Shown here: in pieces, positions 11,895-54,000 of the stretch
Layout: each line of letters starts with the position of its first letter
Position numbering within the stretch: the stretch's first letter is position 1
NCBI GenBank assembly: GCA_903813345.2
Contig: CAIIXF020000004.1
Span: forward strand, 7,831,525 to 7,895,524
DNA from: Owenia fusiformis
Lineage: Eukaryota; Annelida; Polychaeta; Sabellida; Oweniidae
Direction: 5' to 3'
Length of the DNA stretch: 64,000 nucleotides
Notes under the pieces: model-generated
What the model saw: only the letters and a program-made list of their open reading frames with translations
What the model was told of the DNA's origin: nothing
Database searches by the model: none
Program-made: the position numbers and the translations under genes

Positions 11895-12039
11895 ATATAT
11901 CAAAGAACAGGTTCACCGAGATTCCTGAACAAGTTTGTGAATTCTGTTCCATGGAAAATCTAAACTGCTATCATAATGTTATAAGATGTATCCCAGAAGC
12001 TATAGTGCAACTGCAAGCACTGACGCACCTTAATTTAAG
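11895..12039 (+). CDS. LRCH: LRCH exon: first LRR block in window
   Basis: Acceptor TTTGCAG precedes 11895 and donor GTAGGT follows 12039. The exon opens after one base of a codon supplied upstream and closes with two bases (AG). It encodes ISKNRFTEIPEQVCEF, then MENLNCYHNVIRCIPEA and IVQLQALTHLNL, two canonical LxxLxL-type repeats matching the LRCH N-terminus. The last ~80 bp and the donor are repeated six more times just downstream (12064-12690). Reading past the donor gives an immediate in-frame TAG, so retention of this intron would truncate the protein. Confidence 0.88.
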
Positions 12040-15000
12040 GTAGGTGGTCTCTTTGTGAATAAGTGTAAACTGCTATCATAATGTTATAAGATGTATCCCA
12101 GAAGCTATAGTGCAACTTCAAGCACTGACGCACCTTAATTTAAGGTATGTGGTCTCTTTATAAATAGTGTAAACTGCTAACATAATGTTATAAGATGTAT
12201 CCCAGAAGCTATAGTGCAACTTCAAGCACTGACGCACCTTAATTTAAGGTAGGTGGTCTCTTTATAAATAGTGTAAACTGCTAACATAATGTTATAAGAT
12301 GTATCCCAGAAGCAATAGTGCAACTTCAAGCACTGACGCACCTTAATTTAAGGTAGGTGGTCTCTTTGTAAATAAGTGTAAACTGCTATCATAATGTTAT
12401 AAGATGTATCCCAGAAGCTATAGTGCAACTTCAAGCACTGACGCACCTTAATTTAAGGTAGGTGGTCTCTTTGTGAATAAGTCTAAACTGCTATCATAAT
12501 GTTATAAGATGTATCCCAGAAGCTATAGTGCAACTTCAAGCACTGACGCATCTTAATTTAAGGTAGGTGGTCTCTTTGTAAATAGTGTAAACTGCTACCA
12601 TAATGTTATAAGATGTATCCCAGAAGCTATAGTGCAACTTCAAGCACTGACGCATCTTAATTTAAGGTAGGTGGTCTCTGTGAATTAGACTTGCATCAAA
12701 GGTAGTTACCCCTTACCATTTCCTGACCAATGGTAAGACAACGGGGCAACAAAAAGGAAGAAAATTAGTCATATTGGGACATGTTAATATAGAAATTATA
12801 CTCCTAAAATGTTTAAACCACCACCCCCATCCTTGACAGCATGATATGATGATGTTTTTAATTCTATCCAAAATAATGATTTTTGATGATATTTATTTAT
12901 AAGTATTTTTCTGTAGAAAATTTGTAATATTTAGAAAACTACATGTAAACACAAATAGTTCAAAAAACAATTTTCCATCTTTAGTAGCTATGTAAATATT
13001 GAGTTAATAAAAGATATACTGTATGAACATGAATATGAAACACACATTATATTATTTATAGCCCCTTATATTAGCTAGGGGGATGGGGAATCCTATCTTT
13101 TAAAAGAACAATTGCATTAGTCTCTTGGGTTGTCTATGTAATTTACAGGAGATTATTATCATGAATAAATTATATGATTCATTCATGTAGAGTTGAATGA
13201 GTGCATTTTTGGATGAAAAAACCTCACAGTTGTCATGTCTTTTTCATTGTTTTTCTCTCTAAAATTTGAATGAAGTGTCTGATTTTTTAGCATTTCTATA
13301 CAATTTAGAGTGTTGGCTACATTCATGTATATTTTATTTCTTGTTGTTTCCTTTCTTTTCTCATGTATTTTTCATTTCAAAACATGATCCCTCTTTTTCT
13401 TAGGGACCCTGATTGGCCTGATATTGAGTGAGATATGATACATAATATTGATCTTGTATATGTACACATTAGGAAAAATCCTGGTGCAAATGCATTATAA
13501 CAATGGCAATTATAGTTTTTTGTGAATCTTGGAATCAAGAACAATGCATCCTATCTACCAAATTAGATATCAGTCATTCTGATACTCATAACATCTTTCT
13601 GTTTCACCAGAAACATCTTAGGGCTGAGAAGAAATGACATGCCATGGATTATCATGATGGATATCAGTGTCTACTTATGGTACTTCATCAATAAAGTTTT
13701 GTTTATCATTTTCAATTTTCATTGATGGTCAATCTGAATATGAAGTTAATCTCCCACCAGTAATAGCCACATTGATTTTAATAATTTGTGCAAATTATAG
13801 GGGGAATTTAAATTGATGTTTCACAAAACAATATTTTCTAGGAAAATATCAAGCCCCCCTTCCCCGTTCTCTTGCTACCCTGTTAAACACATTGCATAAA
13901 AAGGCAAAAACATTAATACATTGGAAAGCATACATTCCCTGCACTATATCTCTTGTCAAGGTCACTTAGATAAATAGAAATGAACCAGACTTGATGCATA
14001 GCAGAACCTATCAGACCCCACAATGCCATCAAATACAGGCCCGTAGCCAGGATTTGCCAAGGGGGGTTCACTTTTTGAAAATTTCCAGGGGGGGTTCACT
14101 TTTGACAACTTTGGTCCAAAAATGGCCAAAATCACTTAAAATATGTTCAGAATGATGAAAACTGCATGATTTTGAAAGAATTTTTGGCCAGGGGGGGGGG
14201 GTTCGATCAAACCCATCGAACCTCCCCTGGCTACGGGTCTGAAATATAAAAACATTATTAGGAGCCTACATTTTTCTCTGCTTTTTATGTCAAGGTCGTG
14301 ATGAATAGAAAAGAACCATCCTTGATACATCTACATCGCAGAATTAAATATCTATCTGATCTCACACTGGCATCCATCAAATATAAAAATTCTTTGTTAG
14401 GAAATTATATTTTCCCCTGCATTCTATGTCAAGGTTAAGATAAATGAAATGAACCAGACGTGATGCAATGCAGAACTGAATAATCTATCAGACTCCACAA
14501 TGGCCTCCATCAAATATAAAAATTCTTTGTTGAAAAAAGAAGCCAGTCCTATAATTAAAGTACACCAGACATGAGGAATGGTTTTGAGGAAGTCATGGTG
14601 CCTTTCTGTATTCTTAATATGATCAACAGACTTGTTAATGTTCTGCAATTGCCTGAGATCAATATCTCTGTGGGACCAGTATGTCTAGTGTAATGAATGT
14701 TAGACTGGTGTTCCTTTAGAACTGGGGGGGGGGGGTTACAGTGATCTCCAGTTAGTGCCTTTCTGTATTCTTAATATGATCAACAGACTTGTTAATATTC
14801 TGCATTTGCCTGAGATCAATATCTCTGTGGGACTAGTATGTCTAGTGTAATGTATTTGAGGCTGGTGTTCCTTTAGAACTGGGAGGGGGGGGGGTGCTCT
14901 TCATGTTTTTTTCAACATGGGTACTAAATCTGATTTTTTATCCTTAGTTTGATGATTATGTTATGGAAGATTATTGGTCAAAATTTTCAGAAATCACTCA

Positions 15001-18000: not shown

Positions 18001-21000
18001 TAGTTGCTAGTAAGGATTTTCTTACATGTTTTCCTGAATTGTATTTTGTTTCTGTTTCCATGTTAACATTATTAAAGTTACTATTTTCATTCATTTTGTG
18101 TGTTGTTAGGAATTATTATAATGAAACCCCAGACAGAGTAAGAAATATTCAAAATTTGTAAAAAAAGTCTGTTATTCTTCAACTTGGTATAGGAAGTCTC
18201 TAATTCTACAACACAGTCTCTAATTCTTGGGTTCTCAGAAGTCAGTTGCTTCAATGCCAGATCACTGACATATAACCTATTACTGAAATGAAACCCCTAT
18301 AAACCATTAATCACTGGAATGTGTAAATTGCATATTATTTTAAAGGCAATTTATAAAACGGGGATTAATATTTTCAGACTTTTGATCAAAGGGTCAATCA
18401 GAGTGGCAATTACAAGAACAATTTGATTGAAACCCATTAGCCCTTAATAATAAATGGAATCTTGATCTATTGAAAGTGGAAATTATTTTTCAGAATTGGT
18501 ACGTTGAGTAAGATATCAATAATTGTACAGTAAAACTTGTATTTGTTAACATTCTCTGAAGTGAATAGCCTCAATGTTCACTTTAGACAGGTTATATTCA
18601 ATGATCAGTCATCACCAATCATTGAAAGCCAGCATTAAATATTTTGGTTAGCTGAATCTTTCAATGTGAACACCTTTGCCTGATCACTGCAGACATGTTT
18701 TATTATGTAGTGAGACCTGTATATTCGAACACCTTTCTAATCTGAACACCTATCAGTCTGAACACTTTTTTCAGTCCCAAACTGGTTTACTCCAATTGAT
18801 TCACCTGTTTGAAAAATCTGAAATCTGAAGAATTTTGACTGGCCTCAGTTGTATTTTGATTATTGTTTTACTGTATTTCTGGATTGAAATATGGCATATT
18901 CTTAATATCCAATGTTCAAGTTGAATCGGCCAGATATTATCAATGGTTATTAATAGCTTAACTGCAAATTGCTTCTGTTCTCTGTTCTGGTTACTGCTGT
19001 CTTATTAACCCCTTGACTCCCCAGAGTGACAAGAAAATGAGACACAGAATCTCTCACCAAAGTGGCTAAAACTATATTTATCAGATTCAAACATTTTTTG
19101 TTTATTTCATTGTCTAAAACTGATTTTTCAGATTCCTTCAAATGATTTGTTCATTTTTATCTTTCAGTCGTAATCAGATGTCTAAATATTCCTCCCTTCA
19201 TTTATGATACACCATAAAACAGCAACCGTTTTTTGTTAATTGCAGCATTGGTCAAAAGTCTTCAACAATTTAAAATATTCCTTCAAATTATTTTCAGTCG
19301 CAATCAGATGTCTAAATATTCCTCCATTCATTTATGACACATCATAAAACAGCAACTGATTTTTGTTAATTGCAGCATTGGTCAAAAGTCTTCAAGATTT
19401 TAAAATATTATTTATTCGTTTCTATTTTTCAGTCGCAATCAGCTGTCAACAATTCCTCCTTTTATATACAAGCTGCAAGCTTTAGAAGTACTTCTTGCAC
19501 AAAACAACAAACTCGTCTCTTTACCAGAGGAATTGGGACGTCTAGAAAAGCTTATGGAATTGGTAAGTTTCTTGTTTTATTTGATAAATCAGTATTAACT
19601 GGTGGTCACCCCAGACTTTTTTCAAAAATGGATGCATCTTTTTACTTTCACACTTCTTTCAAAAATTGGTCAAAAATATGAGATATTAATTATTTTTCTC
19701 AATTTTTAAGTACGGTATGTACAATAATAACAGGTGTTGATGAAATAATGTTCTAAAAATTCATTTCTTTTAATGTTATGGAAATTACTCTATTATGAAT
19801 GACAGTATACAAATAGTGACTGCCATTGAGGGCAATAGTATAAATTATTTCCCCCGGTGAATATCCTCTAAAATGTACTATTCCCGAAGCCGCAATACAG
19901 AATATCTCGAGCAGAATATATTCTGTATTGCACTTCAAATCATTCAATAACTTATAGTGTTAAACTTTGTATTATTCTTTCTTACACAATGTAACATAGT
20001 GTTACACTTTATATTATCATGTGTTACAGGATGTAACATAATGTTACACTTTGTATTATCATGTATTATTCTTTCTTACACAATGTAACATAGTGTTAAA
20101 CTTTGTATTATTCTTTCTTACACAATGTAACATAGTGTTAAACTTTGTATTATTCTTTCTTACACAATGTAACATAGTGTTACACTTTGTATTCTTATGT
20201 GTTACAGGATGTAAGCTGTAATGAGATCAATCATCTTCCTGTACAGATCGGAGACATCGAATCTCTAAAAGTTTTGAATGTCAGAAAAAATTTACTTGTG
20301 GAACTACCTGAAGGTAAGTGCATGTGTACTTAATCAGCTTCACAGGCTTTGGGTTGAGTTTATAGTCTTGCTTCAAGTCTCTGAACCCATCTTGATTCTC
20401 AAGGTTTTAGTTGCTCTTACTCAAAGTATTATAATCACTTGTAATTTGAAGATGCTCTGAACCACCCTTTTTATCTTCCTCACCACCTTGTAGAGAGCTC
20501 TTATAAAGTGGGGGGAGGGGGTGGGGGGGGGGTCACAAAGGCTTTAGCAAGACTATTGAGTTTATTGCATATTCTGGTATATCTTCATACAGGGAAAACC
20601 TGTGCATTGTGTAATGTGTATTGTGACTTACTGAATACAATAAAATGAAATTAATCAATGTAGAGCTGACACATAAAGCACATACGGTGAATCCTCAGCT
20701 TATTCAGATTCAAGTTGGTGAAGAAATAAATATTTCCAAGCAAAGAGAAGTAGATTATTCAAGCTTCTTTGAGCTGTTGAAATAGTCCTATTTGCGATGA
20801 TTTGATGAAGTAGAGTTATTTCACAGATGTGAGATTTGGGGTTAAACAAAATAGAACATATCTAAGTTAATCTCAGTAACATCCATTGATCAAAACAAGT
20901 GGAATCATTATCTAGTACTTGCACATGTACTGATTTCTTTTTAGAAAAACTGATCTAAATTACTTGCGAGATACTGTTCTATGCTAGAAAATGTTGAAGG

Positions 21001-27000: not shown

Positions 27001-30000
27001 GAACCATTTCGGTAACCAGCGTAATCGAGTGGATCACCAGTGTGTAGTCTCACCATTCACCACTGTGTGAATACTTTTGGGCAGACGGCAGGGCACGGCA
27101 TGGACACACAATGGGCAAAACAATTAGTTTTCCAGCAATACAATATACCCCATTACAAAAATTTAAAAATTAATTAATTAAAAAAACGCCGCTAAAAATT
27201 GGCCACACGATGGCAAACAGTGAACCCACACGGCTAATAGTCCATAATGTGAAAGCTACTTTAAACACAAAGTTATGTATTTCTGATGGCTTTTAGCAAT
27301 CGATTTAAGCTACTTGAGGAGAATCTCAGATGTCAGACCTCCTTGAGGGTAGTACAGAAGTATATTACCCTTTGTTTTTTTAAAAAAGACACCCATAGAA
27401 ACAAGGTCAAATTGACTCATATTCGCACATGAATAGAATTACAGACATTGTAAAAGTAGAAATCATAAGTACATCTACTTATGCATTTTAACATCAGGCC
27501 ATATAATGAAAACATGTTGTAAAAAGGTGTTGGCGGTTGTGTTATACAATGTCTCATTTTGAAGCATATATCATGTTTCAACGAAAGTTTAAGTCCAATT
27601 TGTTAAGTCATTATTAGTTAGTTTGAACCATACTTCCACTATGTTACATCAAGATAATTAAAAATGTATGCTTTGTAAATTTGTACATTACAATAACTGT
27701 TCTAACATGACATGCTTTATGTATAACAAATTTTATTTTTTCAAAACATGGAATCCATACACCCCTCGGGGTGTCCTTTTCATATCACTTGTAAATTAAT
27801 ATTGTATGAAAACTAGAATTGAATAATAATAATAAATTGAATAAATTGAATTGAATATGTATATATGACGTGTTGTATCCTTTGAATTTATTGAATTATA
27901 TGGCACTTGATTGAAAATATGCTTGCAGCCTGTCAAAAGGTCTGTAATCTTGTCTGTAATCTTGTCCAGTTCATATGTTATCATTTAGGGGTGTAAATCT
28001 GTAATCTTGTTTAATACATGTGTAATATTGTCAAGTACATATATAATCATGTGGGGCATGACTGTAATCTTGTCTCGTACATGTGTAATCATGTGGGACA
28101 TATCTGTAATATTGACCAGTTTATATATTATCATGTAGAGGTGTAAATCTGTAATTTTGTCCAGTTCATGTGTAATCATGTGGGGAAAATCTGTAATATT
28201 GTCCAGTACATATATAATCATGTAGGGAATATCTGTAATCTTGTCTAGTACATGTGTAATCATGTGGGACATATCTGTAATATTAACCAGTACATGTGTA
28301 GTCATGTGGGGCATATCTGTAATCTTGTCCAGTACATATGTAATCATGTAGGGAAAATCTGTAATATTGTCCAGTACATATATAATCGTGTGGCATATCT
28401 GTAATCTTGTCTAGTACATTTGTAATCATGTGGGACATATCTGTAATTTTTTCCAGTACATGTGTAGTCATGTGGGGCATATCTGTAATCTTGTCCAGTA
28501 CATGTGCAATCATGTGGGAAAAATCTGTAATCTTGTCCAGTACATATGTAATCATGTGGGGCATATCTGTAATATTGTCAAGTATATGTGTAATCATGTA
28601 AGTTATATCTGTAATCTTGCCTAGTATACATGTAATCATGCAGGGTATACCTGTAATCTTGTCCAGTACATGTGTAATGTGGGGTATACCTGCAACCTTG
28701 TCTACTACCTGTGTAATCACATTAAATCAATGTGTAATCATACTTAACACATGTCTCATCATAATTTCAGAATTAGGTCAACTCCGCCTGAAGAGATTGG
28801 ATATCTCAAATAACAAAATACAGAAGATCCCTTCTTCATACAAGAATATAGATACACTAGAGGAACTGATTGTGGAGAACAACCCTCTAACTTGCCCACC
28901 AGCCCATGTATGTATAACTAGTTCAGTATATTTAAAATGCCCATCAGCCCATATATGTATAACGAGATCAGTATATGTTAAATGACCTCCAGCCTTTGAA
29001 TAACTTGTCTAATATATTTAATGTAAAGGTTTCTAATGTAAAGAACAAATCTGTAACTCCCATCCATCCCTATTATGTATAACTAGTTCAATATATTTTC
29101 TCAAAATGTTATCAATGTTTATATCAGAATAACACTTCCTTTAACTTTTTGCATTAACTTGTTTTATGAAAGAAGATAGAATTCTAAAAATGACAGTGAA
29201 GTATGGCCTGAAACGTATAAGGAAAAAAACTGATCTGTACTGAAATCATAATCAACAAGCATAACTTTGTAATACAACGTCAATGAATGTTATACACGAT
29301 TGAATGAAAAAACAGATATATTTTACACCAAGACCCAAGATGAGGAAATCAATATATTCAGATGTAATGAGTCATTGCTTTGCTGTTTATTTTGCTCTAG
29401 CTACGATAACATGAATCATAGCGGTCTCAATATGTTGAGTTCTATGTTTCCCAGACCATGTTTAATCCATGTAATTTGAATTGAAGTGAATGTCTTGATT
29501 CCTGTCACATGATTTAGAGGGTAGTTGTCATGATACATAATTGCTTACTCTGTTTTTTGTCTACTTAGAAATCATTATTTTTCAAAAATTTAGCCCTATT
29601 TCTTCAAGGCCCAGACAGCTAAATGTTATCTAATTTTAAATCTGTGATTTTAAAGATTTTTCTTTGAATGAAATAATAGATATATACTTGTGGGAAAATG
29701 TCACAATGGTCTGTTATAATGTATTCATATATTGAATACAGTGGAAAAGGGTGGAATCCGCCAGGAATCAAGCAAACAGCCCAGATTCCTTATGTAATAA
29801 GGTCAGAGAAAAGATAACATAATCTGCCTTCCTTTATTTGGCAGTTGAATGGCTTGTTAGGGTTAGCTACTGTAAAATAAAAAGATAAGTGTTATGCCAG
29901 TATGGCAATTTTGCATGGAAGCAGTCTCCAGTCTAGACTGTGTAGGATGAATGAGAAAAAGATCAATACTAAGTTGTCTTTTGAAATAAATTAAGGTACA

Positions 30001-33000: not shown

Positions 33001-36000
33001 ATCCAGCATACATGTATGCACATTTAATTTTGGGTATTTTCTATAGGAATTCTATGGAATCTAATGGTATTGTCGAACCACAGAGCAAAAATGACAAAAA
33101 CAGACGCTATGTCAGTGGGGATTCTGGGTATAATACTACGGAAAATCTTCATGAGGTGAACGGGGATGCTAAAAAATGGTCACCCGAGGTAAGTCATAAT
33201 ATAGTATATTTTTATTTTTCCAAATTTATTTAAATCCGATGAATTTCTTTTGAATTGATAACAGCCATGCAGAAGTTGAAATTATTGTTTTATTGGCATA
33301 TTTACTTTTAATAGAAAGTTCATCTTTTAACTATATATTTTTTTTTCTTTATTCACTAGTTCAGCATAATACTCAATTTTAAAATAGAGGATATTATTAT
33401 TTTTATATAACATAATTTCCATATTGTTTGTTAGTTCATTTGTAATTTTGTTTGTTTATTTTGTTTATTTTTTTAAATATATCTTAAATATTGTAAATGT
33501 TGCTTGTCACATAGATCCAGCAGCCGAACAAGAAATTTTTGCATGTTCATTTTTTCAATGTTTTGTATGTATTGCGCAGCTTTATATTTTGTCCACCATC
33601 AAGATTTATTTAATTATTTATTTACTTTGCAAACATGAAAATCAATTTCTCCATATTAAACATGAAGTATGATATTTAATTATTTTTACCATCTCATTCA
33701 ACTAACTCACTATTCATTCACATAATATGTTTTAATTCATGAAACTTTATACTCATTAATTTTGCTCAATCAAAATTCCATACATCTTTGATCCTAAGGG
33801 CGGTGTTCGCCTAATCCTAAATGGGTTTTGATCAACGAAAATCGTTAATCAAGATGTATTCCCATATTCCTTTATTCTGAAAAGGTAAAAAGTTGAGGCT
33901 TGTTTTATTTAGTTGTGGCATCATCGAGAATCGTGTCCTCCGGGTATTTTAAGTCAAGCTATCAGCAAACTCTCACACAGGATCTCTGAGACATTTCACG
34001 ATGTAAGTGAAGGAGGTGTCAAACCCACACTGCTTTTCTGTAAGACTGGGGTATCTGGGAATTTCGTCCTTCTCTGATTGAAAGAGGTGTGATGCCAATC
34101 TGCTTTCTGTAGGGCAGGGACAGCTGGGAATTTCATCCTCCTCTAAGTGAAAGAGGTGTCATACTCAGCTGTCTTTCTGTATTACTGGGGCTTCTGGGAA
34201 CTTCATCCTTCTCTGAATGAAGGAGGTGTCATACCCATGTGCCTTTCTGTAATACTGGGGCTTCTTGGAACTTCATCCTCCTCTGAGTGAAGGAGGTGTC
34301 ATACCCAGCTGTCTTTCTGTAATACTGGGGCTTCTGGGAACTTCATCCTCCTCTGAATGAAGGAGGTGTTATACCCAGCTGCCTTTCTGGGCAAGGAAAC
34401 TCCCAAGTGCCCCAGACTCTATAGTCTAGACTTACTGAGGTTTCTGGGAAGACACACTCCTTTTGTACGAAAAGGCTCTTTTAAGGGCCATATTCCATGG
34501 TTGCAGTGCTGGCTTTCGGAGCACGAGCACTGATATTATTCAAATACCTGGTTCAAACAATACTATGAAAGCTTAGTCTTGCTTCAAGCCCCTGTGACCC
34601 ACCCCCTCCCCCTTGATACACACCTTACCTTAATTCAAAGAGAAGCACATGTATTGGGAAGGGGGGGTACAGAGACTTGATGCGAGACTATGAATGCTAG
34701 TTAGGCGTATGAAACACACATGAGCATACTCATGAAATTTTTGATCTGAGAATCTTGAACTCTATTTGTTGAGATTGATATATTTTGTGTGCTAAATATA
34801 TCCTGCTGTCATGTGTGTTTGTGTGTAATATATGCTGTTATCTGTGTATATCATGAATTGTGTGTGATTTATGTCTATTTTTTTTTTGTATGTTGAAATT
34901 GTCCTGTTTGCGTGCATGTATGTGGATATATTGTGAAAATTTAGAATAAAATATACGCTGTGATTTGTAATTGTGGTGTCGCAAGTTGCTTTGAAATTGT
35001 ATATACGTGATGGATGTGAAATGTTTGCTTGAATGGCAAGATTGAAGCATGTTTCATATACTGATATAATCATTTGATTTGTTTTATCTCATGTTCCAGA
35101 ATGTTAATTATCAATTTTCAGCTTTGGGGTCAGATTTGTGTAGATTTTAGAAATTAGAAATATTCCAATCTTTAAATCATCAAGAATTGCAAATTTGATG
35201 TCTTAAATCAATGATTGAAGATTTTTCAGGGAGGGGAGGGGGGGTGGGCTGAAGAATTAGCCTAACAGAATGTAAGTTATGAGAATACACAGCCTAGAAT
35301 TATATATAATGTGAACAGTTTTCCAGACCCTGTAAATCATATACAGTAAACAGTGAATTTAAACAATGCTGATAGTGAAATTCATCCATTTGATGAACAC
35401 TTTTCAGATTCCGATGACAAATTGACTTTATGTTAATGGAGCTATGTTAGTGGAACAGTGAACACCTTGCAAGTGGAACACTTTTAGAGATGCCAAATGT
35501 GTTCTACTTACACAGGTTACCGTTTCGCTGTACCATTTTTAAGACCAAAAATACCAATATGAACAGATTATCAGTATATGAAACATGAGTGTAGTATATA
35601 ATGTATTGAACCAGGTATTACATGCACATATTATTGCTTTGGTGTTGGATTTGAGCTTATACTAGATTTACTTAGTTAAAAAATCATTCCATCCTTCTCA
35701 GTACCATACAACACTAAAGTTCAGTTTTAATTTTGTTATATCATCCAACAATGTTGGATTTGAGCTTATACTAGATTTACTCAGTTAAAAAATCATTCAA
35801 TCCTTTTCTGTACCATACAACACTAAAGTTCAGTTTTAATTTTGTTATATCATCCAACAATGTTGGATTTGAGCTTATACTAGATTTACTCAGTTAAAAA
35901 ATCATTCAATCCTTTTCTGTACCATACAACACTAAAGTTCAGTTTTAATTTTGTTATATCATCCAACAATGTTGGATTTGAGCTTATACTAGATTTACTC

Positions 36001-39000
36001 AGTTAAAAAATCATTCAATCCTTCTCTGTACCATACAACACTAAAGTTCAGTTTTGATTTTGTTATACCATCCAACTATGTTGGATTTGAGCTTATACTA
36101 GATTTACATAGTTAAAGAATCATTCCATCCTTCTCTGTACCATACAACACTAAAGTTCAGTTTTGATTTTGTTATACCATCCAACAATGCTGGATTTGAG
36201 CTTATACTAGATTTACTTAGTTAAAGAATCATTCCATCCTTCTCTGTCCATATTCCATACAACACATTATATAACTTCAGTTTAGATTTTATTTCCAAGT
36301 TATCAAGTCTATATTTTTGGACATTTGTTATTGTTCTGTATTTATCATAAATGATTCAAACTTTAATTGATATTTCTGTTATTAAGCTATTTAAGTACTG
36401 AGGACTTGTCTCTATACGGGCCTGGTATATATGATGATGCCTTTTAGTATGGCAACCACATAGTTAATATGAAATATCTTTGGATTTATACGCTTGCGAT
36501 CAGCTGCTTCCAGTCGTACTAATATGATATGCACTATTTGCCTATCTATGACTTCTTTCTACAAAATTTACTAATTCACAAGTTGATTTCGATGAATTTA
36601 GAATAATTAAAATATAATTGGTAAAAGTATTTAAGGCAATATTAATTCAGTGCCTCTTTGATGTAAGATTGTTCTAAAAATTAATTTACATTTTAAGCTT
36701 GTTCCTTTAATACATTCACCTTTCTGACCCCTGATAGTTTAATTGCAAATTATTCATTACATTTGATTACCACTTTTTCAATTCAAAGTTGCTTAATCAA
36801 AAAGTTCACTTGTAATCCCTTAAATTGGCAATCTAATATAAAATGGAGTAGCTTGATTTATTAAAGGTAGAATCAGACATAAATTGAAACCATTGTCAAA
36901 ATTGTTTCAATTTCATAAATTTCTAGTGTCGTGCATCTGAAAGAAATCTACCATTTGGTATATCAGATGCTGGCACACTTTTGCCGGAAGTTTGCAAGAA
37001 GTAACTTTTGGCAATATAGTATGTTAGAGTAACCTAGTAGGTGTAAGAAAATATAAGGTGATGGGCTTTAAAGTGGTAAAAACAATTTTCACAGCCGAAT
37101 TGGACTTCAATTCCTTCTATTTCAGGGGGTACTATAATATTATTTCATAACATAAAGGATATATTTGCTATTGTTCTGCTTTCTACTGCACACATTACTA
37201 GTCCAGAGATGAATAATATCCTAAAGTTATAGGCCGAGATCTGTATTAGTCTCAGAAATATTGCAATTAATAGGAAAAAAATATGCAATTTTATTCATTT
37301 TTAAGTCTCACCTATTTTATATTTGTAGCTTCCAGCAAAAGATGGCAGCTTAAATAGCTCAAAATTGTTTTCTTAAAACTAGTTCAAGCTTTGTTTGATA
37401 TTGTAATACAACTATAATAATGATAATGTACTATTTATGATTTTTAATGTGACTTTATAGTACCCTACCCCTGGAAAGTGGGCGTGGTCGATGTTATCAT
37501 TTTGCAGCATACTATTAAAAATTTGCTTCAATAGAAAGCGAATCAATGCATTTCAAACATCTTCAATTGTTACTTGACATTGTAATTCATTTATTACTAG
37601 AATATAGGACTCTACATTTTTTATATATACATTTTCAATTTAGTACAATGTTTTATAATGAAACCTAATAGGCTGTTTCAATTTACCAACTTTTTCTCGG
37701 ATCACTCTTACCTTTTGACAAAATGATCTACTATATGACCAATAGCCACAAAAAAGAACTGATCAACATTTAAACTGCCCCCTCTACCCCAATGTTTGTT
37801 TTGTATGGGGTCCGCCACAATGCAACAAGTCCATTTTCAGTGCTTACTATCACATGAAATATAAGTCACAATGTTTCCACAATACCCTGGCAATGAGATA
37901 GTGCCATTAAGAATACATATGCACAGATTCAAGATCATAATGTAAATACTTGCCGATCTATCGGCTTTCAAAAATGAGGAAAGCTGTCTCGAGTGCTGTT
38001 TCAGCTAATTTTGAATTAAAACTGCTACTTATGCATTCTTTTCTCAACATCTGTGATTTGGTAAGACTCCCAAACACAGGATATCAGGACATAGTGCTAC
38101 CAAATTCTGGTATTGAAAATTTCAGAGCTCTAGATCAAGTATTCATATCTGCATGGACTCTTAGAAAGACCCAAAAGACAAAAAATGCAGTCAGATATCG
38201 CGAAGAATGTGATAAAATGCCCTATTCAGAACAATTTATCTGTTAAATTTTACTTTTATTTACCATAATTTCTGATTCTGCCTCTAGTTAGTGATACCAA
38301 TAATACATATGAGTAGACTTAAGGTCATAGTAAGTGTAGTTACAGGTTTTATTTAGAACTGAAACTTTTAGTACTTTCTCAGAGTTACATCTAGTTATTA
38401 TTTATTAAGTGACTTCAACATCCGAATTGATAAATTCACTGATATGCTTAAGACCAAAAACCTATTAAGAATGTTATTATTGAATACTGAGAATACATTG
38501 TTTTTGCATTACGGAGCTTAATATTTCTACCTGAAAGTATTTTGGAACATATCTCTTGCTTAAATATTTTATGCAATGTTACTTTCCAAAACTTTCCAAG
38601 AACAATAAGTCCATCCTATACTTTCACATGTTATTCTCCATTTCATTTTCAAGTGGGAGCTTTAAAGTCTATAAAATAAGAGCTTAATACCAATTATACC
38701 ATGCACCCTCTTTGCCCTCCGTCGCTTTTTCTTAGGATGGACAATCATATTTCGAATTGAATTGAGTAAAGTCAGTTAAAGTGATATATAGCTGTATATA
38801 ACAAAGTATCTTTCACTTGATACTGTGATGTCAAGCTTAAGCATTCAAACAGTGTATTTTGTCCCAATATACAATAAAGTACTGATTTCATTTATTTATC
38901 AATTCAGATGCCTTGGAATTAAAGTAAATACTTGGTATATATTACCAATATTATTTTTACTTATTATTGGTAGTGCAATGACCGGGTTTCCTTTCATGTC

Positions 39001-42000
39001 TTTGGTCTTACGGTGCAGTTTGTAAAAAGAAAATCCAGAAAGTTGCAGTCTTAGATGAAAAACTGGTGAAAATCATATTTGCTACAGCTTTTCCCATTTT
39101 CAGAAGCCAATAGATCTGTAACTCCACTTACTATGACGTTAAGTCTTCTCATATGTATTATTGGTGGTACTAACTGGAGGCAGAATCAGAAATTATGTCA
39201 AATAAAAGTAACATTTAAGAGATAAATTGTTCTGAATAGTGCATCTTTCATATTTTTCTCGATATCTGACAGGTTTTTGTCCTTTTGGGTCTTTTTAAAA
39301 GTACATGCAGAAGTGAATATTTGATCTAGAGCTCTGAAACTTCCAAAATCAGAACTTGGTAGCATTATGTCTTAGTATCCTATGTTTGGGGTCCAAAAAA
39401 GTCACAGATGTTGAGAAAAATATTCATTACGTAGCAGTTTCAGTTCAAAATTAGTTAAAACTGCACTCACGACAGATTTGTCTATTGTTGAACGCCGATA
39501 GATCGGTAAGTATTAGTATTAGTACCTTGAATCTTCTCATATTATGTAGTCTTTGTGGTACTTTCTCATTGCCAAGGCAATTCGGAAACACTGTGACTTA
39601 CATTTCATGTGTTAGTGAACACTGAAAATGAAACAGCCTATTAGATTTCATTATTATACATTGTACAAAATTGAAAACGTATATATGAAATATGTAGAGT
39701 CATATATTTTAGTAATAAATGAATTACATTGTCAAGTAACAAGTGAAGATGTTTTAAATGCACTGATTTGCTTTCTATCAATACAAGTTTTTAACTGCAT
39801 GCTGCAAAATGATAACATTGGCCACGCCCACTTTCCAGGGGTAGGGTACTTTAAAGTCATATTAAAAATCATAAATAGTACATTATCATTATTATAATTG
39901 TATTACAATAACAAACAAAGCTTGAATTAGTTTTTAGAAAACAAACTTGAGCTGTTTAAGCTGCCATCTTTTGCTGGAAGCTACAAATATAAAATAGGTG
40001 AGACTTAAAAATGACTAAAATTTGCATATTTTTTCCTATTAATTGCAATATTTCTGAGACTTATACAGATATCATCCTATAACTTTAGGATATTATTCAT
40101 CTCTGGACTAATAATGTGTGCAGTAGAAAGCAGAACAATAGCAAATATATCCTTTATGTTATGAAATAATATTATAGTACCCCCTGAAATCGTAGGAATT
40201 GAAGTCCAATTCGGCTGTGAAAATTGTTTTTACCACTTTAAAGCCCATCACCTTATATTTTCTTACACCTACTAGGTTACTCTAACATACTATATTGCCA
40301 AAAGTTACTTCTTCCAAACTTCCGGCAAAAGTGTGCCAGCATCTGATATATGGTATATCATTGATCTTTTTAGAATTTTGTCAATCTCTCAATATAGATT
40401 CTACCTTTAAACTTGTTATTTTGGCTTATGTTGTTCTTACTAAGTTGCATATATTGAACTAGTTGATATTGTACATCAGGGTGGACAGGATGCTCAACAG
40501 GTGGAGACACTGGTGCTTCAATCGGGAGAATCTGTCAAAGAAAAACGTCAAGAACGGGAAAACGAGTTACAACGTAGAATCTCGGAGCAAGCGCGAGAGT
40601 CGATTCGTGAAGCTGATTTAAGGACTCATGGGAGATCTGCTGATGGATTATGGGACAATACAACTTCGGTGCAATTGGTACGTCGCCCTTCTAGTGCAAC
40701 AGGAAGTGGACAGTCAAGCGGTGTTGGTGGCAGTAGTGGTGGTGGCGGGAAAATAGTAAATAAGACATCGGTGCCCTCTAGTGGGAGATCTACACCAGGA
40801 CGTACAACACCATCTTTACAGAGACGTGTATCGGGAGATTTAATGCCAAATATGGGCGTATCGGATACCAACGGGGATGCTTCAGACAGTTCGGAATTCC
40901 AGTCACAGATGAATCTTGAAGATGAATTTACAAGGGTTGGTTTTAAGATTTATTTTAAACAGATGTGTTGTTATAGTAAGGGGTCTGCATGATTAAAAAT
41001 AAAGACCCCTTACAAACAACACAAATCTATGGTCAATTTAAAATTTGCTTAAAGTTGCTTTTTATTTTGTTTTGCTTTGGTCATACATACTTACAAGAAA
41101 TAATTTCTAAGGTAATATTTGAATTTTTTTTCAAGTTATTCTCAAAATTCTTAGAAATAGTTCCCTATATAGAAGCTTTAAATGTAATTTGACTATGTTT
41201 ACCATATATGGGTGTGTAAAAACTAACTCTTGCTTTCTTTGTTTACACGTTTTTCAAAGCTAATAGATTCAAAAAGAGTGGAATCAGGCTTGTAATAGTA
41301 GTTACACGCTGTGTGGGAATATGGTATATTGTTTCCACATCTGGAAAAAAACTCTGAACATATCTTTTGATACCAATGAAATGATTCAGTCGTACCACTG
41401 CTGACAAAAAATCTCAGAACTAAATGTTCTTAAAAATCGAAACAAGGCCTTTTCTAGTTTACCTACATAAAAAAATATGTTTCACTCAATGTGGATCAAA
41501 ATATGAAAAAAGTCAATAATATGAAAACATATTTTTCAATTTCAACATAAAAATATTTGACGCTTAGTCGCTTACAGAGAATCTCCTCCTTTTGACAGTC
41601 CATTCATGCTGAGTCTTATTTGAGCAAGAATTTTGCGTGAATAATATAGACAAAAATGATACGAGAATTTTAACATTTTACGTGCCCATATATGGTTATC
41701 ATTTGCATGGAATCCCCACATTTCATGTATATTAATGCTGGTACATGGATTTTATATTTCTTACATCCATCATGTAAATAAAGTCAAAAAAGGGGGGAGG
41801 GGGAGAGGTTTGACCCACAATTCAAATATGAATCTATTGCAGAATAAAGATCAATCTGTAGGTAATCTTTACATAAAGATTGGTTCTTTGAATTCTGGGT
41901 AAATCCCTCTCTCAGTGAAACATCTGAAAACATCTTTCATCAGTTCTCTGCATCCCCCTTCTCCACCCCCCCCCCCTGCTCCACAAGCGTGTGGCTAGGG

Positions 42001-45000: not shown

Positions 45001-48000
45001 GGCAATGTAGTAAACCACAATTCAGAATTATGTTACCACCGAAAGTTGTGACATGTTGTTATAGTGACCATCTTTTTGTGGGTTGTATTCAGTGGTTGGC
45101 ATTTGGCAGTTAGCGTTCGATGTCTGTAATAAATGGCAAGTAGTGACATTTTGCATGTTAATGCCTTGTTCATTATTTTGCCAAGATAACTGCCCAGACT
45201 AGCTTTACTACGTAATGTCTTACTCTTTATACCTTTATTTTATCCTCAGTCTGTTTTTCAACCCATTTGTTGATAAATTCTCTTGAAGCATCTGGTTTGT
45301 GTTTGAAGTCTAGTTGTTGGAGAGAAGCATTATAGAAGAATTTACTTTGCTTGAGGTATTTTGGTAGAAAGCCAAATCTGAAATCAGTCAAAAAATTTTT
45401 TTGGAGAGAAGCATTATAGAAGGATTCACTTTGCTTGAGGTATTTTGGTAGAAAGCCAAATCTGAAATCAGGCAAAAAAATGTTTGGGAGAGAAGCATTA
45501 TAGAAGGATTCACTTTGCTTGAGGTATTTTGGTAGAAAGCCAAATCTGAAATCAGGCAAAAAAATGTTTGGGAGAGAAGCATTATAGAAGGATTCACTTT
45601 GCTTGAGGTATTTTGGTAGAGAGCCAAATCTGAAATAGGACAAGAAATATGAGACCATAAAATTATCTATATCTTAGGTTTGGACTTTACATAGGCATGG
45701 TTTATATCATTAAAGAGTTCATAATTCTAAAATGTCATGACTTAGACTTTGTTAAATCACCAAAATTCCATATTTACAAATAATTCTACTTACCAAATAT
45801 CACGGGGTACCATCGAATAATTTTGGCAACGTACCGGAGAACGACAATTTACTAAGAAATGGCAATAATTTAGCACAATATATTTTTTAACTAGAGTTCT
45901 ATTTTGATTTTGACAAAAGTAAGTATTCCATGCAATAACTATTTCATTCATGAGTTTGTAGGAATTCTGTTGGAACCCAGTTCTGATCAAGTACGAAGTT
46001 ATTGAAATCGGCGCAGACGGACTTTACTCCGAAAGATGGTTTTTCGATTATAACTTTTCACAACATTTAAGTATAGACTTTTGAATAAAGTACAGAATAG
46101 TCCTTATACTTTTGAATAATTCTGTTATTTCTGATTCCCACGACTCTGATTTGTTTAATTAAAAAAAAGTTTTAAAAATATTACTTAGGAACGTAACCGG
46201 AGCTGGGAACGTAACCGGAGCAGATCAGTTGAATTATTTAATCAAAAAATTAAAATCTATGATTTAAAGCACATATACTAATTTAAAAACATACGGGATT
46301 GTTGGAATGCGTATTTATTACATTTTATTTAAAGAAAAAAATTTATCCATTGTGAAAAAATAAATTTGGTATTTACCATGCATAAGTGCACTTACCTTAG
46401 AAAGGCTATCAAACATAGAACAATCATTGTAGGGAGAATGAAGTGATTAAATGTAGTAAGCAAATAATTCCATTTGATTTCACCCATTGTATTTGTTCAG
46501 CGAACTATTAGAACCCACTCTGTTATACTAATTTCTAATTAATTTCTAATTTATATACTAATTGCCATGCATTGATTTTCCTGTAAGTGAATGGTAATAA
46601 ATGCTCATTTTAACATTCACAGGTGTTTGTGAATAATATATATGCTTTAAATCATATATTTTATTTTTTTAAATTATATAATTCAACTTATCTGCTCCGG
46701 TTACGGTCCCAGCTCCGGTTACGTTCCTAAGTAATATTTTTAAACTTTTTTTTTTAATTAAACAAATCAGAGTCGTGTGAAGCAGAAATAACAGAATTAT
46801 TCAAAAGTATAAGGACTATTCTGTACTTTTTTCAAAAGTCTATACTTCAATGTTGTGAAAAGTTATAATCGAAAAACAATCTTTCGGAGTAAAGTCCGTC
46901 TGCGCCGATTTCAATAACTTCGTACTTGATCAGAACTGGGTTCCAACAGAATTCCTACAAACTCATGAATGAAATAGCCATTGCATGGAATACTTACTTT
47001 TGTCAAAATCAAAGTAGAACTCTAGTTAAAAAATATATTGTGCTAGATTATTGCCATTTCTTAGTAAAATGTCGTTCTCCGGTACGTTGCCAAAATTATT
47101 CGATGGTACCCCGTGAATATGGTAATTTAAATATGTCGAAAATCAAATTGATATTACAATGAAATATCAAATAAATCTAGTTAAAAAAATATGACATTTA
47201 CCCTTCCTGGCCGAACATTCTATTGGCTGTTTTCAGTGTAATGTTCTTATTGGATTTCTCCAGCGATGCCCCCAACATCCTGTAGGCCTCATGAGTGGCT
47301 CCCCCTAGTGATTGCAAATGCAGCGCATTTGTCATCTGATTTGCTGTGTTATTCCTAGCTCCCAATAAGGTCATCGAAAGCACGGTCGATATACTGATCG
47401 GGGATATGAAAATATTTGGTGTTTTATCCAATGCAGTTAAATGGCAATAAAAATCAAAGGCAAAATCCGATGTGCTTTTTCCAAGAATTTGAAGCGGATT
47501 TTGATACATTGCCGAAGTTGTTGATATATAAACTATGACAAATACTCCGACCCCTATCCCCTTCATTTCAATACGCGCCATTTTATTCTGAATTTCAAGT
47601 TCAGTGTGAGTATTTATAAGACCAGCTAATATAAAGACAGAGCCTTGAATGTCAGTTATGACCAATTGTAAGCTAAATAGGGATACATGTTAAACATGTT
47701 TATACTTATCATTTTCTCATATCTGAAGGGGCCTTGTCCGATATTCACTAGAGGTAGACAACCGCTGATTTGTTTTGTTCTTTTTACCAAAATCAACCAT
47801 TGTATGAAGAAATTTTTTGACTTTTTGCATGTTACATTTAAATCCCAATTATTGTGCCTTTTGTTGGAAATTTATGAACTCTGGTATCATTTTCGAATTA
47901 ACTAATCATTTAGGGGGTAGGCAAGAGTGGGGGGGGGGGGGCAGGCCCGTAGCAAGGATTTGCCAAGGGGGGTTCACTTTTTGGAAAATTCCAGGGGGGG

Positions 48001-51000
48001 CTCACTTTTGACAATCTTGGACCAAAAATGGCCAAAATCACTTAAAATGTGCTCAGAATGGTGAAAAACTGTATGATTTTGAAAGAATTTTTGGTCAGGG
48101 GGGAGGGGTTCACTCCAACCCCCCCTATGGCTACGGGCCTGGGAGGGGGAGTTGTTTGTGAAAATAAATGAAAATTGAGTCAGAGTAATACTACTTTTCA
48201 TTGTTTCATCATGTTTAAGAAATTTGGTGAAAAGAGGGCAATATAAGCCTTCCTTGATAGCTTCACATAAAGCATTTGAATTATGACATGCTCCCTTATC
48301 AATTCAAAGTTGTGTCTTTCAGATAACTAAGACAATCTCATTGTTTTGCTTTGTTTGGTTATCTCCTGTTTATGTTATTGAATCTAACTGTTTGACCCCC
48401 TCCACTGATACCCTCATATGGCCTATGTTACCAGCAAGATATGTTACCAGTGAGATATGTTACCAGTGAGAAAAATGACCTTGCCTATAATTTTAAAACA
48501 AAATTCTATGTTTTTTTTTTATAATTTTCTATGTTGTATAGTAAAAACTGCAATTTTCTTACAATACTTTTTCTTGAATTTTAGTTCCACCCCTTCTGCA
48601 CTTTTTCAGTAACTTCTGAAAGGGGGAAGGGCATAGAAATGCAAAAAAGTTGAAAACAACTTATCCTATGTTGTTATTTTCCCATCTGTAAAACTCAGTC
48701 ATCACTTTCAGCCTAATTTTGGTAACTTCCAAATTTGGGTTTTAATCTAAGATGTCTTCTTGTATAATATATCTATGCAATAAAAAGAGGAAAACAAGAT
48801 CATTTTTAAGAAAATAAGTCAGATATTTGAAAAATGTGTTGAGGTAGGGTCCTAATCCATGGTTTTCGGGAGAGACAAATTGATACTGTTATAAATCAAT
48901 GAAATATATTGATGAGATGTTGAATTTATGGTGGGAAAATACTCAAGGTCAAAGATATGACTTAAATCATTTGTCCAACCATACCTGGTCCCTTTAGAAA
49001 TATACTCCATAATGAAATATTGATCATAAAAGTATAAACCACTTTCATATTGACATAAATCTTATTTTATTTATGATTTTAAAAATACACTTCCCAATAA
49101 AAAAAATATTGATATCAAGTATTAAGAGAGTGGTGTTTACTTAAACTATTACGCTTGTGATAGATTTTTCCCTTTTAAAGTTGAAATCATATCTATAAGT
49201 ACAATATATCTTTGCATTCAAAATAATGAAAAGGCCTGCCTTTTTGGTAAAAATTGGTTCATAATTTGGGAAAATGAGTGATAAGGGGTGGATTAGTGAC
49301 AACTTAAGAAATAATCTAATCGACTTTATTAAAATTCTAGTGTCCCTTACTGAAGATAACACATGGGACTAACAACTAGACCTATTTGTTTTTATGGTCA
49401 CCAAATTCTTAGAACTTAAGGTATAGCTGTCTGAAAAAGCTTGCAATATGCCTCCAGCTCCTTTGAGAAATGGGCAGATTTTTCTATTGTTGAAATCTTA
49501 GGCCAGTGAAGGTCTTACACAATGCAGATTAGTTAAACTTTGTATTTGTACACCATACTGCTTTTGGAGTTGATATTTCAACTTCGTTTAGTCAATCTTG
49601 TTCCATATAGCTTTAATTATCCCAATGAACGAAGTTCGGTAGGGATATAGTGAAGCCCTCCGTCCGTCCGTCAGTTCGTCAGTCCGTCCGTCCGTCCGTC
49701 CGTCCGTCTGTCCGTCCGGAAGATAACTCAAATATTAGTCGACGGATTTTCTTCATATTTGGTGGAAAGATGTATATTGATAAATAGTTTTAGGCAAGAT
49801 GGCCGCCGCTTTAAAAATGACAGGACTTTTTCGTAAAAATCATAAATTTTTCATTCTAAACCAAAGTTATCAATATTATTGTTTGAAATTTTGGTAGTAT
49901 ATTTGCAACATCTATCTATTTCAGATATATTCTGTGTTTTTCATCCTGACCCCCAGGGGCCGTGTATGGGGGGTCAGGAAAACAGAAATTTTCGCTAATT
50001 TTTAGATCTTTCTGAAGTATAGTTTTATTATACTCAAATGAAAGGCAATTAAGAATAGATTGCAAATATTGTATCTTTTTCTGATTCGAGCCTCGTAAAA
50101 TTCAAAATGGCCGTCTAATGTACGATTTCGCAATAATTTTTCGATCCCTTCAAAGTATGGCTGTATTATACTCAAATTGAAGGATTTTTGGAGTAGATCA
50201 CAATTATGGTATTATTTGTCAGATTTGTACCTCAGAAAATTCAAAATGGCTGCTTTGCTGGAATTCGCAATTCTAAAATCTAAATTTTTCGATTTTAACC
50301 AAAGTAATGAGTATAATTGATTGATATTTTGTTCGTTGGGATTTGCTACTCCGCGGAGTTGCCATTATCTTTTTTTTATTGATTTTATTGTCAAAATATG
50401 ACAGCATTCAGTTTATAATGTATATTGACAACATTAGCTGCAGAGATTTGTTAATTTTATTGCTGTTTACATATATTGCTGATGCTAACTGGAGATTTTT
50501 TACGCTTTATTCATCAGTCAATATCACAGTTAGACCATGTAGTCATAGAACTTGCTATGCTTAATAAAATGCAACAAAAAAAGGACATACAAGTTGTATA
50601 TTGGTCATACTTACTGGAAGTTAGTAGCATTGAATTAATCAGGAATTTAATATAACTAAGTGTAGACTCTGTGGTCCGAGTACAGTATGCTTAAAAAAAT
50701 GCAACAGAAAGGGACAATACTTTGTTTTGTTTTACTCACGGTTGGATTATATGTAATACTCAGCAGATATGTTTGGGTGATTAACAGCGATACCCACAAA
50801 ATGAAGATGTATCAAATGGATGAAAGAGATAGGATTGTACAGTTGAAATATCAAAGTGAATCTATTGTACAGTTGAAATATCAAAGTGAATCTACCGGCA
50901 AAGTGACTGTTCAACCCATTGGCAAACATAGTGGCAAACTTACTGGCAAACCAAAAGGGGTTTACTTTCTGAAAGTGCATAAATGCGGAAGTACAACCCT

Positions 51001-54000
51001 ACAGACTATTCTGTTGCGTTATGGACTTCTCTACAACATGACCATAGGCATGCCATGTTCGCATCCACAAAGTGTACGACAAATCATGGGAATTCCCGAA
51101 CCTTTGAAATCTGAACATATAATGCCATTATCGACAGGTTTAACACACTATGACCTGATTGCACAACATACTCGATACAGTATAGACGTTAAGCAAATTA
51201 TGATGCCTGGTACCCCATTTGTGGCCATACTTCGTGACCCGATTACACACTTTAAGTCTTTGTTCAGCTTTTTCAAAGTATACATAACTTATAGGAAACA
51301 TATTTCACTTCCGAATAACGCAACTGTTCGAGAAAAGTTTAAATATTTCGTGGATAGGATAAAAGACATGCCAGAGTTGACTATCTCTCCTCCAGATGGT
51401 TTACCTGCGAGGAATCCACAATTGTATACTTTTGGATTGACTGACCACCAGACTAAAAATCTTGACTTCGTTCAAGATTCATTAAAACAGTTCGAATCTG
51501 ACTTTGATTTAGTGATGCTTGTCGAACATTTTGACGAGAGTTTAGTTTTGTTACGGAATATTCTTAACTGTGATTTGCGTGATTTGATTTCACTTAAATC
51601 ATCTTATGTTTCTCCTGATAAAGGAGCTACTAAGCTAACAACAAAACAAAAACAAAATATATTAGAATGGAACGCTGGAGATAAAATACTGTATGATCAT
51701 TTTAACAAAACATTTTGGAAGAAAGTCGAACAATATGGTTTTGATAGGATGTCTGAAGATGTCGCCAAACTACAAGAACTGGCTAGGATTGAAAAAGAAT
51801 CCTGCCATGCTATTGGCAAAATTATTGGGGCATTTGAAGTGGGGCTGGAAACACAGCGATGTAAACTTTATAATGCAGATATATGGAACCTTGAGCGTTT
51901 TGTCAGATCAAGAATGACAAAAAGTGGTATTTATAATGTATCATTGGCTCAAAGGACCTGTAAACATCCACCAACACTGGATGGTCAATGAACACTTGAT
52001 GATTAATGAACACTGGATTGTCAATGAACACTGGATGATCAATGAACACAGGATAATCAATGAACACTGGAAGGTCAGTGAACATTGGATGGTCAATGAA
52101 CACTGGATTGTCAATGAACACTGGATGATCAATGAACACTGGATCGTCAATAAACACTGGATGATCAATGAACACTAGATTGTCAATGAACACTGGATGA
52201 TCAATAAACACTGGATCGGAATGAACACTGGATTGGAATGAACACTGGAAGGTCAATGAACACTAGATAATAAATGAACACTGGAAGGTCAATGAACACT
52301 AGATAATAAATGAACACTGGAAGGTCAATGAACACTAGATAATAAATGAACACTGGAAGGTCAATGAACACTACATGGTCAATGAACACTACATGGTCAC
52401 TGAACACAGTCAATGAACACTAGATTTCAATGAACATGTGAAAATAGTAGTAGCATACTTGGGAGACTTAACAAGAATTAATAGATATGTTAGAATTAAA
52501 ATAATTAGACTATGAATAAATGGGACCAAAATGTAAATAAAAATTTGTCTCTTGACAACTATATTTCAATGTACTACCAAAACACGGCAGTAATGCACAA
52601 ATAATTGAAGGCCAATGTTGTTCTTCAATTAATTTCTCATTCAGGATAAGATAGAACAGCAGTAGTGATGGGCTCTCAGCCCTTAGCTAGGATACTTGGT
52701 GGGTTTGAGTGACACCCCCCCCCCCCGGACATAAATTCTTTCAAAATCATGCAGTTTTTCATCATTCTGAGCACATCAAGTGATTTTGGCCATTTTTGGG
52801 CCATAGTTGTCAAAAGTGACCCCCCAGGATTCTTTTAAAAAGTGAACCCCCTTGGCAAATCCTGGCTACAGGCCTTCTCTGATTATTATGTCACCATAAA
52901 GTGGTGACATTATGTTGTTTTTTATGAGCCTGGGGGCCATTAACAGAAACTTCGTAAAGTTAAGAATTCATAAAGTCCATTGTTCTCTAACTGTGATGTC
53001 ATTATATCCATGGTAACAATAATTAATTTACGAATTCATAATTTTACGAGTTTTTTTTAATGACCCCCTTGTTTATCTTATATGACAATTCTGTAAAAGA
53101 ATAGTAATCTTCAAGGTGTGACGAAACACTAATGAAGTCATGGAAGTCATGAGAGTCATGGGAGTCATGAGAGTCATGGGAGTCATGAGAGTTTTGAGCG
53201 TAAGGAGAGAATCAGAGACTAGGAGACTTGTTTTGATATTGAAGTTCCTGTTTAATTTATGTAATCTATTTAATATATATGTACATATACATATTTTCTA
53301 TCCTTTTTATGTAGGATGAGACAGACCGTCAAAGGAGACCCTCGTATAAGACCCCTGAAGAACAAAAAGTTCAAAATGACGAGGTTGAACGTCAACGACG
53401 TGTGGCGTATAAAGTACAAGAAGAACAGAAGGCCTTGATTGAGAGACAGCGTGAAGAAGCCAGAAATAAACCTGAAAGTAACAGGTAAATTGTACATTTT
53501 ATTAACAGGACTGGTCGGTGGATTTGAGAATTTAATCTACATGTACTATGAAGTTTTGATTCAGTTATGTGATTTCATTCCTTAAATGGGATTTTTATTG
53601 ATATGGGTGTTCAAAAATATTTGAGAAATTTTAGGTGTAAAATATTATTGGTAAATGTATTTCAATATAATAATTTGAAGATAAGTTGAAAAATGAATGA
53701 AATGTTTTTCTCATAGTTTATTGGACACCCTTTACATTGGGAAAAAATATAACATTATTTTAGCGTGGATACCCTGTATATTGAGGACCATCTATAGAAT
53801 CAAGCATGTATCATTCATGCATGCTGTTCAACTAACACTGTAATTCTGTATAGATATATGCACTAACAATGATAAACAGTAAACCCTGTTTTTAGACCCA
53901 CCCCCTCCCTGTTATATTATAACTTGTAGAAAATGTATTTTACACCTTAATGAATTGAAAGTGTGAATGATAATGGAGATTTATAATCTGTTGCACTTTT

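Follow-up and report, generated by a model that had tools for sequence, protein, structure and literature searches.

Tandem arrays across exon–intron borders in the annelid Owenia fusiformis: mirages in a new taxon, with an excess that depends on the null model

Does tandem duplication take account of gene structure, or does it meet exon edges by chance? The question is raised by a stretch of 64,000 nucleotides of the annelid Owenia fusiformis (assembly GCA_903813345.2, contig CAIIXF020000004.1; G000:C4:7831525-7895524), hereafter called the window, in which tandem arrays lie across exon borders of an LRCH gene and of a serpin gene. The original prediction, made from the letters of the window, held that at least six independent arrays overlap exon borders and multiply splice sites, that two more touch a border or a stop codon, and that either some property of exon edges that promotes duplication or a preferential retention of duplicates was responsible. 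The analysis described here demonstrates that the pattern is real and extends to other genes of the genome, and that an excess at exon edges can be measured but is dependent on the null model.

Arrays on exon borders in the window

Tandem arrays were called with Tandem Repeats Finder (TRF), and the genes of the window were described by in-frame exon models. The LRCH model comprises ten exons (11895-53484) with a single open frame throughout, for which the end of exon 7 was moved to 34002, and the Pfam matches in the window were LRR_14 (E 6e-23), Serpin (E 6e-40) and Gal-3-O-sulfotransferase (E 1e-46). All eight arrays noted originally were recovered by TRF, and a splice border was located inside six of them, as had been proposed. 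The functional copy was contiguous with the remainder of the exon in each case, being the first copy in donor arrays and the last in acceptor arrays.

The LRCH features all lie on the plus strand. At the exon 11895-12039, which has its acceptor at 11895, its functional donor after 12039 and matches to LRR, an array of 6.9 copies (11961-12679) repeats a 105-bp unit consisting of 79 nt of exon end, the GT donor and 24 nt of intron. The first copy is the functional one and GT is kept in 6/6 extra donors; when 11895-12700 was queried against the genome, the single match was the query itself. Similarly, a 93-bp unit of 64 nt of exon end, donor and intron with a G run is present in 13.3 copies at 30249-31509, over the donor of exon 30179-30312, again with the first copy functional and with GT kept in 11/12 aligned extra copies. 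Over the acceptor of exon 19433-19562 lies an array of 2.4 copies of 130 bp (19140-19461) with a functional last copy; TRF reported two rows here, of which this one has the lower score, and the other (19157-19409) ends before the exon. An array of 6.0 copies of 42 bp (19954-20214) reaches only 7 nt into exon 20208-20313, with AG kept in 1/5 extra copies of acceptor 20208, and an array of 2.3 copies of 45 bp (28893-28994) spans the donor of exon 28771-28907, with GT gone from the single aligned extra copy. On the minus strand, 3.8 copies of an 84-bp unit (45319-45636) lie over acceptor 45377 of a serpin exon (45234-45377, the low end approximate by 1 nt; Serpin match), and AG is intact in 3/3 extra acceptors.

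The two further arrays were also as described originally. An array of 5.5 copies of 70 bp (34006-34389) begins 4 nt past the end of exon 7 (33913-34002), whose donor it abuts, and copies no exon sequence, while an array of 26.2 copies of 18 bp (51973-52436, plus strand) contains no splice border but covers the stop codon (51989-51991) of a Gal-3-O-sulfotransferase gene with one exon (50738-51991), which is nested in an LRCH intron on the LRCH strand. The differing units bear out the claim that the arrays were separate events, and both the unit anatomy and the extra GT and AG copies confirm that splice sites are carried along and multiplied.

The chance test for the window was based on 28 borders, 18 arrays and a margin of 5 nt, and yielded five straddling arrays when the best TRF row was used throughout, or six with the 19140-19461 array. 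Under a seed-based null, 0.73 straddling arrays were expected (P 4e-4 for at least five, P 3e-5 for at least six). Circular shifts of the whole arrays placed on average 2.0 arrays on a border (P 0.0025 for at least six), and a mean of 3.1 when counted by borders (P 0.105 for at least six).

Border arrays in a sample of the genome

The frequency of such arrays elsewhere was assessed in an independent sample outside the window, the design of which was fixed ahead of seeing the sampled DNA. The assembly comprises 498 Mb in 525 contigs, of which 12 (32-62 Mb) carry approximately 477 Mb. Three matches above the cut-off to the annelid-specific erythrocruorin linker family (PF16915) were found in it, in keeping with an annelid host; a search for COX1 gave no match. 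Exons were obtained from Pfam profile searches of the genome contigs for myosin head, kinesin, Cpn60_TCP1 and HECT, which listed 92, 144, 60 and 81 matches, respectively (377 in total); all candidates were scored for Cpn60_TCP1 and HECT (76 and 92), and the exon lists for kinesin and myosin are partial, with 122/218 and 65/210 candidates scored. After 46 matches had been set aside, namely 17 dispersed HECT copies identical to one another, 12 myosin exons arranged in tandem and all but one of the 18 copies of a kinesin exon, 331 exons remained in 176 regions, from which 283 exons at 151 loci were drawn randomly and sampled with 500 bp on each side (270,897 bp). Borders were predicted by reading frame and splice-site weights, and 468 of up to 566 passed the splice-score cut. 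With a TRF score of at least 100 and a period of at least 15, 58 arrays were found, and those spanning a border by at least 8 nt were regarded as border arrays.

This applied to 22 of the 58 arrays, corresponding to 22 of the 468 predicted borders (4.7%, or about one in twenty). The number did not change over TRF score cut-offs of 50-200, a stricter splice-score cut gave 16 of 363 borders in arrays, and the 22 arrays were distributed over 18 bins of 60 kb. All four families were affected (kinesin 10/183, Cpn60_TCP1 7/89, myosin 3/104 and HECT 2/92 borders), donors (9/228) and acceptors (13/240) at similar rates (Fisher P 0.52), and none of the observed sample arrays covered two borders. Print-outs of the 22 arrays in register displayed mostly intact splice sites, repeated and adjoining real exons. 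At L054, for instance, a 53-bp donor unit is present in 10 extra copies, and L056 carries 15 extra acceptors. Automatic border prediction took a neighbouring copy at L019 and L071, which was corrected by hand for the frame analysis described below and left only 4 nt of exon at L019, one of the 22 border arrays; at L018 the sample held the first copy and not the functional one. The window was richer in affected borders than the sample (5/28 compared to 22/468; Fisher P 0.013), which is expected since the locus was picked for its border arrays.

The sharpest case of an exon-proximal functional copy is the kinesin array to which L018 and L152 belong (G000:C2:23266359-23269174). It consists of 18 copies of a 159-bp unit made up of the acceptor and 122 nt of exon, and AG is present in 17/17 upstream copies, but the remainder of the exon follows only the last copy. 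Read in the correct frame, L018 has a stop in each unit.

Tests for an excess over chance

Whether the border arrays are in excess depends on the null chosen. We prefer a null in which each array is represented by one unit, its seed, because an array grows from one local unit, so that overlap with the edge is required of this unit alone. On this basis, the rate of intron-only arrays predicted 2.6 border arrays (bootstrap 1.5-4.1) where 22 were observed, with rate ratios of 6.2, 8.2 and 7.1 in three period classes, or about 6-8-fold per base. Conditional on unit lengths, 6.8 of 57 arrays (one of the 58 was dropped, its smallest period being below 15) were expected to straddle a border, again compared to 22, a number reached in 0 of 200,000 draws; the increase was seen for periods below 60 (8 compared to 1.55 expected) as well as for longer ones (14/19 compared to 5.2). 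A copy-number-weighted control, which includes the border arrays themselves, gave 1.4% or 6.6 expected borders (Poisson P 2e-6). Exons unseen in the flanks would bias these estimates low.

Several observations weigh against an excess and against the origin proposed below. When whole arrays were placed randomly within the loci, the kind of permutation put forward with the original prediction, a mean of 24.8 fell on borders compared to the 22 observed, and hence there was no excess. Likewise, coverage was lower at borders (4.7%) than at intron points 150-450 bp away (6.4%; 178/2787), and an excess appears only with array footprints cut to one unit. The rate on which the seed estimate is anchored comes from few long-unit intron arrays (5 with a period of at least 60), and all splice borders of the sample were predicted from sequence. 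Duplications wholly inside exons were not seen, so an exon hotspot followed by purging is only presumed. Finally, no homogenisation of the extra copies that spares the functional unit was apparent, the identity among extra copies being higher than that to the functional unit in 8/21 arrays and lower in 10/21 (P 0.98).

It could thus be argued that arrays simply cover a few percent of the genome and meet exon edges by chance, the window being a lucky cluster, and the border count in the window (P 0.105) as well as the two whole-array comparisons in the sample would agree with this. Such a null, however, lets a grown array land on an exon and erase it, for which reason it was rejected as a sole model; each unit was copied from local DNA, and both the seed footprint (2.6 to 6.8 expected) and the copy-weighted control (1.4% compared to 4.7%) speak against it. 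Pure chance is therefore, in our judgement, quite unlikely. The claim that arrays are over-represented at exon edges accordingly stood under the seed null and failed under the permutation of whole arrays.

Fate of the extra copies

The multiplied splice sites were followed in 27 arrays, for which splice-site retention was determined with the uncorrected borders (no copies were obtained for L018). GT or AG was retained in 93/109 extra copies, compared to 92.4 expected from the overall identity of the units, demonstrating neither constraint nor purge; the extra sites drift like their surroundings. The exon part of the extra copies was 94.1% identical to the functional unit and the intron part 89.5%, giving divergences of 5.9% and 10.5%, respectively (paired test over arrays, P 0.0017). 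The difference amounts to about the factor of two that would follow from a freezing of the functional exon edge alone.

If the next site were used instead of the functional one, a frameshift would result in 15/27 arrays, a stop in 8/27 and an open insertion in 4/27, rendering the neighbouring site unusable in 23/27 (the serpin array was excluded from this analysis). The median identity was 95 in border arrays compared to 90 in intron arrays (P 0.014), or 95 compared to 92 when periods of at least 30 were considered (P 0.195). The border arrays are therefore not older than the intron arrays, which favours more births over longer life, although array ages are blurred by concerted evolution.

Origin of the arrays

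Taken together, we consider it likely that the arrays are exon-edge minisatellites, or mirages, which originate from local duplication across an exon edge, whose extra copies are neutral and which are born more often at exons. A tandem duplication whose ends fall on either side of the border, in the exon and in the adjoining intron, would copy the exon edge together with its splice site, and the copied units could then multiply into an array, possibly by unequal exchange or conversion. The copy still attached to the exon remainder would stay functional, while the others would sit in the intron and drift as intron DNA. The exon-proximal site is presumably the one used in the RNA, as would be explained by exon definition, in which the acceptor and donor closest to each other are paired. 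The excess may mean that duplications touching exons are born at a higher rate, which is the reading favoured here, the wholly exonic ones being purged and the edge-crossing ones surviving.

A possible alternative is that border arrays are born at the same rate as others but live longer, either since a deletion removing the array would also take the exon edge, or since the frozen exon part keeps the copies recognisable. The greater similarity of the exon part to the functional unit would fit this, but longer life predicts older and more diverged arrays, whereas the border arrays are equally or more uniform, and identity among extra copies is not affected by a frozen exon part. Retention rather than birth is thus disfavoured, and we regard it as unlikely, though deserving of some weight. 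Selection for the extra splice sites, as redundancy or as decoys in regulation, could be invoked for arrays with perfect sites in many copies, such as the 15/15 extra acceptors of L056 and the 17/17 of the kinesin array. The overall retention is nevertheless what unit identity alone predicts, and most neighbouring sites lead to a frameshift or a stop, making this explanation very unlikely; these two results, together with that on array age, argue against the earlier suggestion that retained duplicates are favoured.

The other earlier suggestion, that donors are fragile owing to G runs or R-loops, has in its favour the G runs of the 30249-31509 array and a run of four G or C in 6/22 border units compared to 4/36 intron-only units. 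It did not hold up, as acceptors are affected as often as donors and 16/22 border units have no such run, and we give it only a slim chance. An assembly artefact appears extremely improbable: tandem arrays are prone to mis-assembly and the present ones are known from the assembly alone, but substitutions distinguish their copies (of the 18 in the kinesin array, 15 are distinct in sequence), the units vary between genes and an artefact would have no reason to favour exon edges. Exon methylation was also considered as a cause and found no support, 5-methylcytosine being reported as higher in introns than in coding exons of O. fusiformis (PMC11292947).

A broader possibility, which we find attractive but would not yet wager on, is that in some lineages of animals tandem duplication in the germline generally has its hotspots in exons, in the present case by about 6-8-fold over introns per base. 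The border-crossing products would survive as mirages at approximately 1/20 of the splice borders, in the annelid as in lancelets, providing a standing supply of ready-made splice sites from which introns could be gained, exons extended and whole exons amplified. The 18-copy acceptor-exon array of the kinesin gene would be an example of such amplification, and perhaps also the alternative exons that stand in tandem in a myosin gene. Should the excess be borne out across the genome, tandem duplication would not be indifferent to gene structure in the annelid lineage studied, and two questions would become testable with existing data, namely the origin of new splice sites and introns and the choice of the spliceosome among up to 18 near-identical acceptors.

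Further features of the sample and the window

The myosin heavy chain gene just mentioned (G000:C9:37986009-37994334, L153) contains 12 tandem diverged exons, all for one stretch of approximately 50 residues, which are probably mutually exclusive. The 17 partial-profile HECT matches, of equal score and frame length, are found on many contigs (e.g., C1:25257117-25257257), and likely represent either a fragment of a gene that has been dispersed or a mobile element that carries a HECT-like part.

In the window, near-identical open stretches on opposite strands (45793-46023 and 46893-47159) form a long inverted repeat within intron 1 of the serpin gene, resembling a foldback element. A second long inverted repeat, recognised by eye from motifs shared on both strands, lies in an LRCH intron (approximately 36900-37900 and 39400-40350), and two tandem arrays with units of approximately 160 bp (58275-58898 and 62008-62469) are apparently mutual reverse complements. 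A dispersed G-rich repeat, GTAGCCAGGATTTG...GGGGTTCACTTTT, was also seen by eye, in both orientations, at 14020-14250, 47940-48140, 52690-52890 and 56740-56930.

Comparison with mirages and other known systems

The phenomenon had been thought to lack an earlier description, but tandem repeats spanning exon–intron boundaries have been published for the globin genes of amphioxus, where they were named mirages (PMC3087553, which also cites earlier work on Adh3), and further for troponin C and PGBD5 (PMC3902484). In amphioxus, the units measure 10-160 bp, many but not all carry AG/GT, splicing is apparently undisturbed, the mechanism is described as unclear and the repeats are proposed as a source of introns (PMC3087553). 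The O. fusiformis arrays agree with them in having units of tens of bases to approximately 160 bp that span the exon–intron border (6 arrays in the window and 22 at predicted borders in the sample), at 5' as well as 3' borders, with AG/GT in many but not all copies. The units are likewise unrelated between genes, and the functional copy adjoins the exon remainder.

Two other systems are similar in part. Intron gain by tandem genomic duplication, the Rogers model with potato RdRp as an example (PMC4974935), shares the local tandem duplication carrying AG/GT; there, duplication within coding DNA creates a new intron, whereas in the present arrays the copied border already existed, as did the intron that received it. 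Intronic minisatellites or variable number tandem repeats share the tandem copies, their variable number and the decay of edge copies, but a splice site and coding sequence form part of the present units, which are for the most part longer, with a period of at least 60 in 14/22 border units compared to 5/36 intron-only units.

The present case also differs from the amphioxus reports in several respects. Normal splicing by reverse transcription PCR and length variation, both between haplotypes and somatic, were shown in amphioxus (PMC3087553, PMC3902484), where concerted evolution among copies is described as leaving out the functional unit, whereas the arrays presented here are known from the sequence of one assembly. 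The mirage reports, as far as these sources extend, concern single genes of four gene families in a chordate, the lancelet, while an annelid genome was sampled here with a frequency and an excess. That the host is not a cephalochordate bears on the taxonomic range of mirages so far and not on a structural criterion. Among the titles listed by searches of an open-licence library, none reports mirages from another phylum, and their occurrence in an annelid suggests that they are more widespread than the lancelet reports found so far indicate. The arrays are thus of a known kind, mirages, in a new taxon; what is new is the taxon, the frequency of about 5% of borders and the measured excess.

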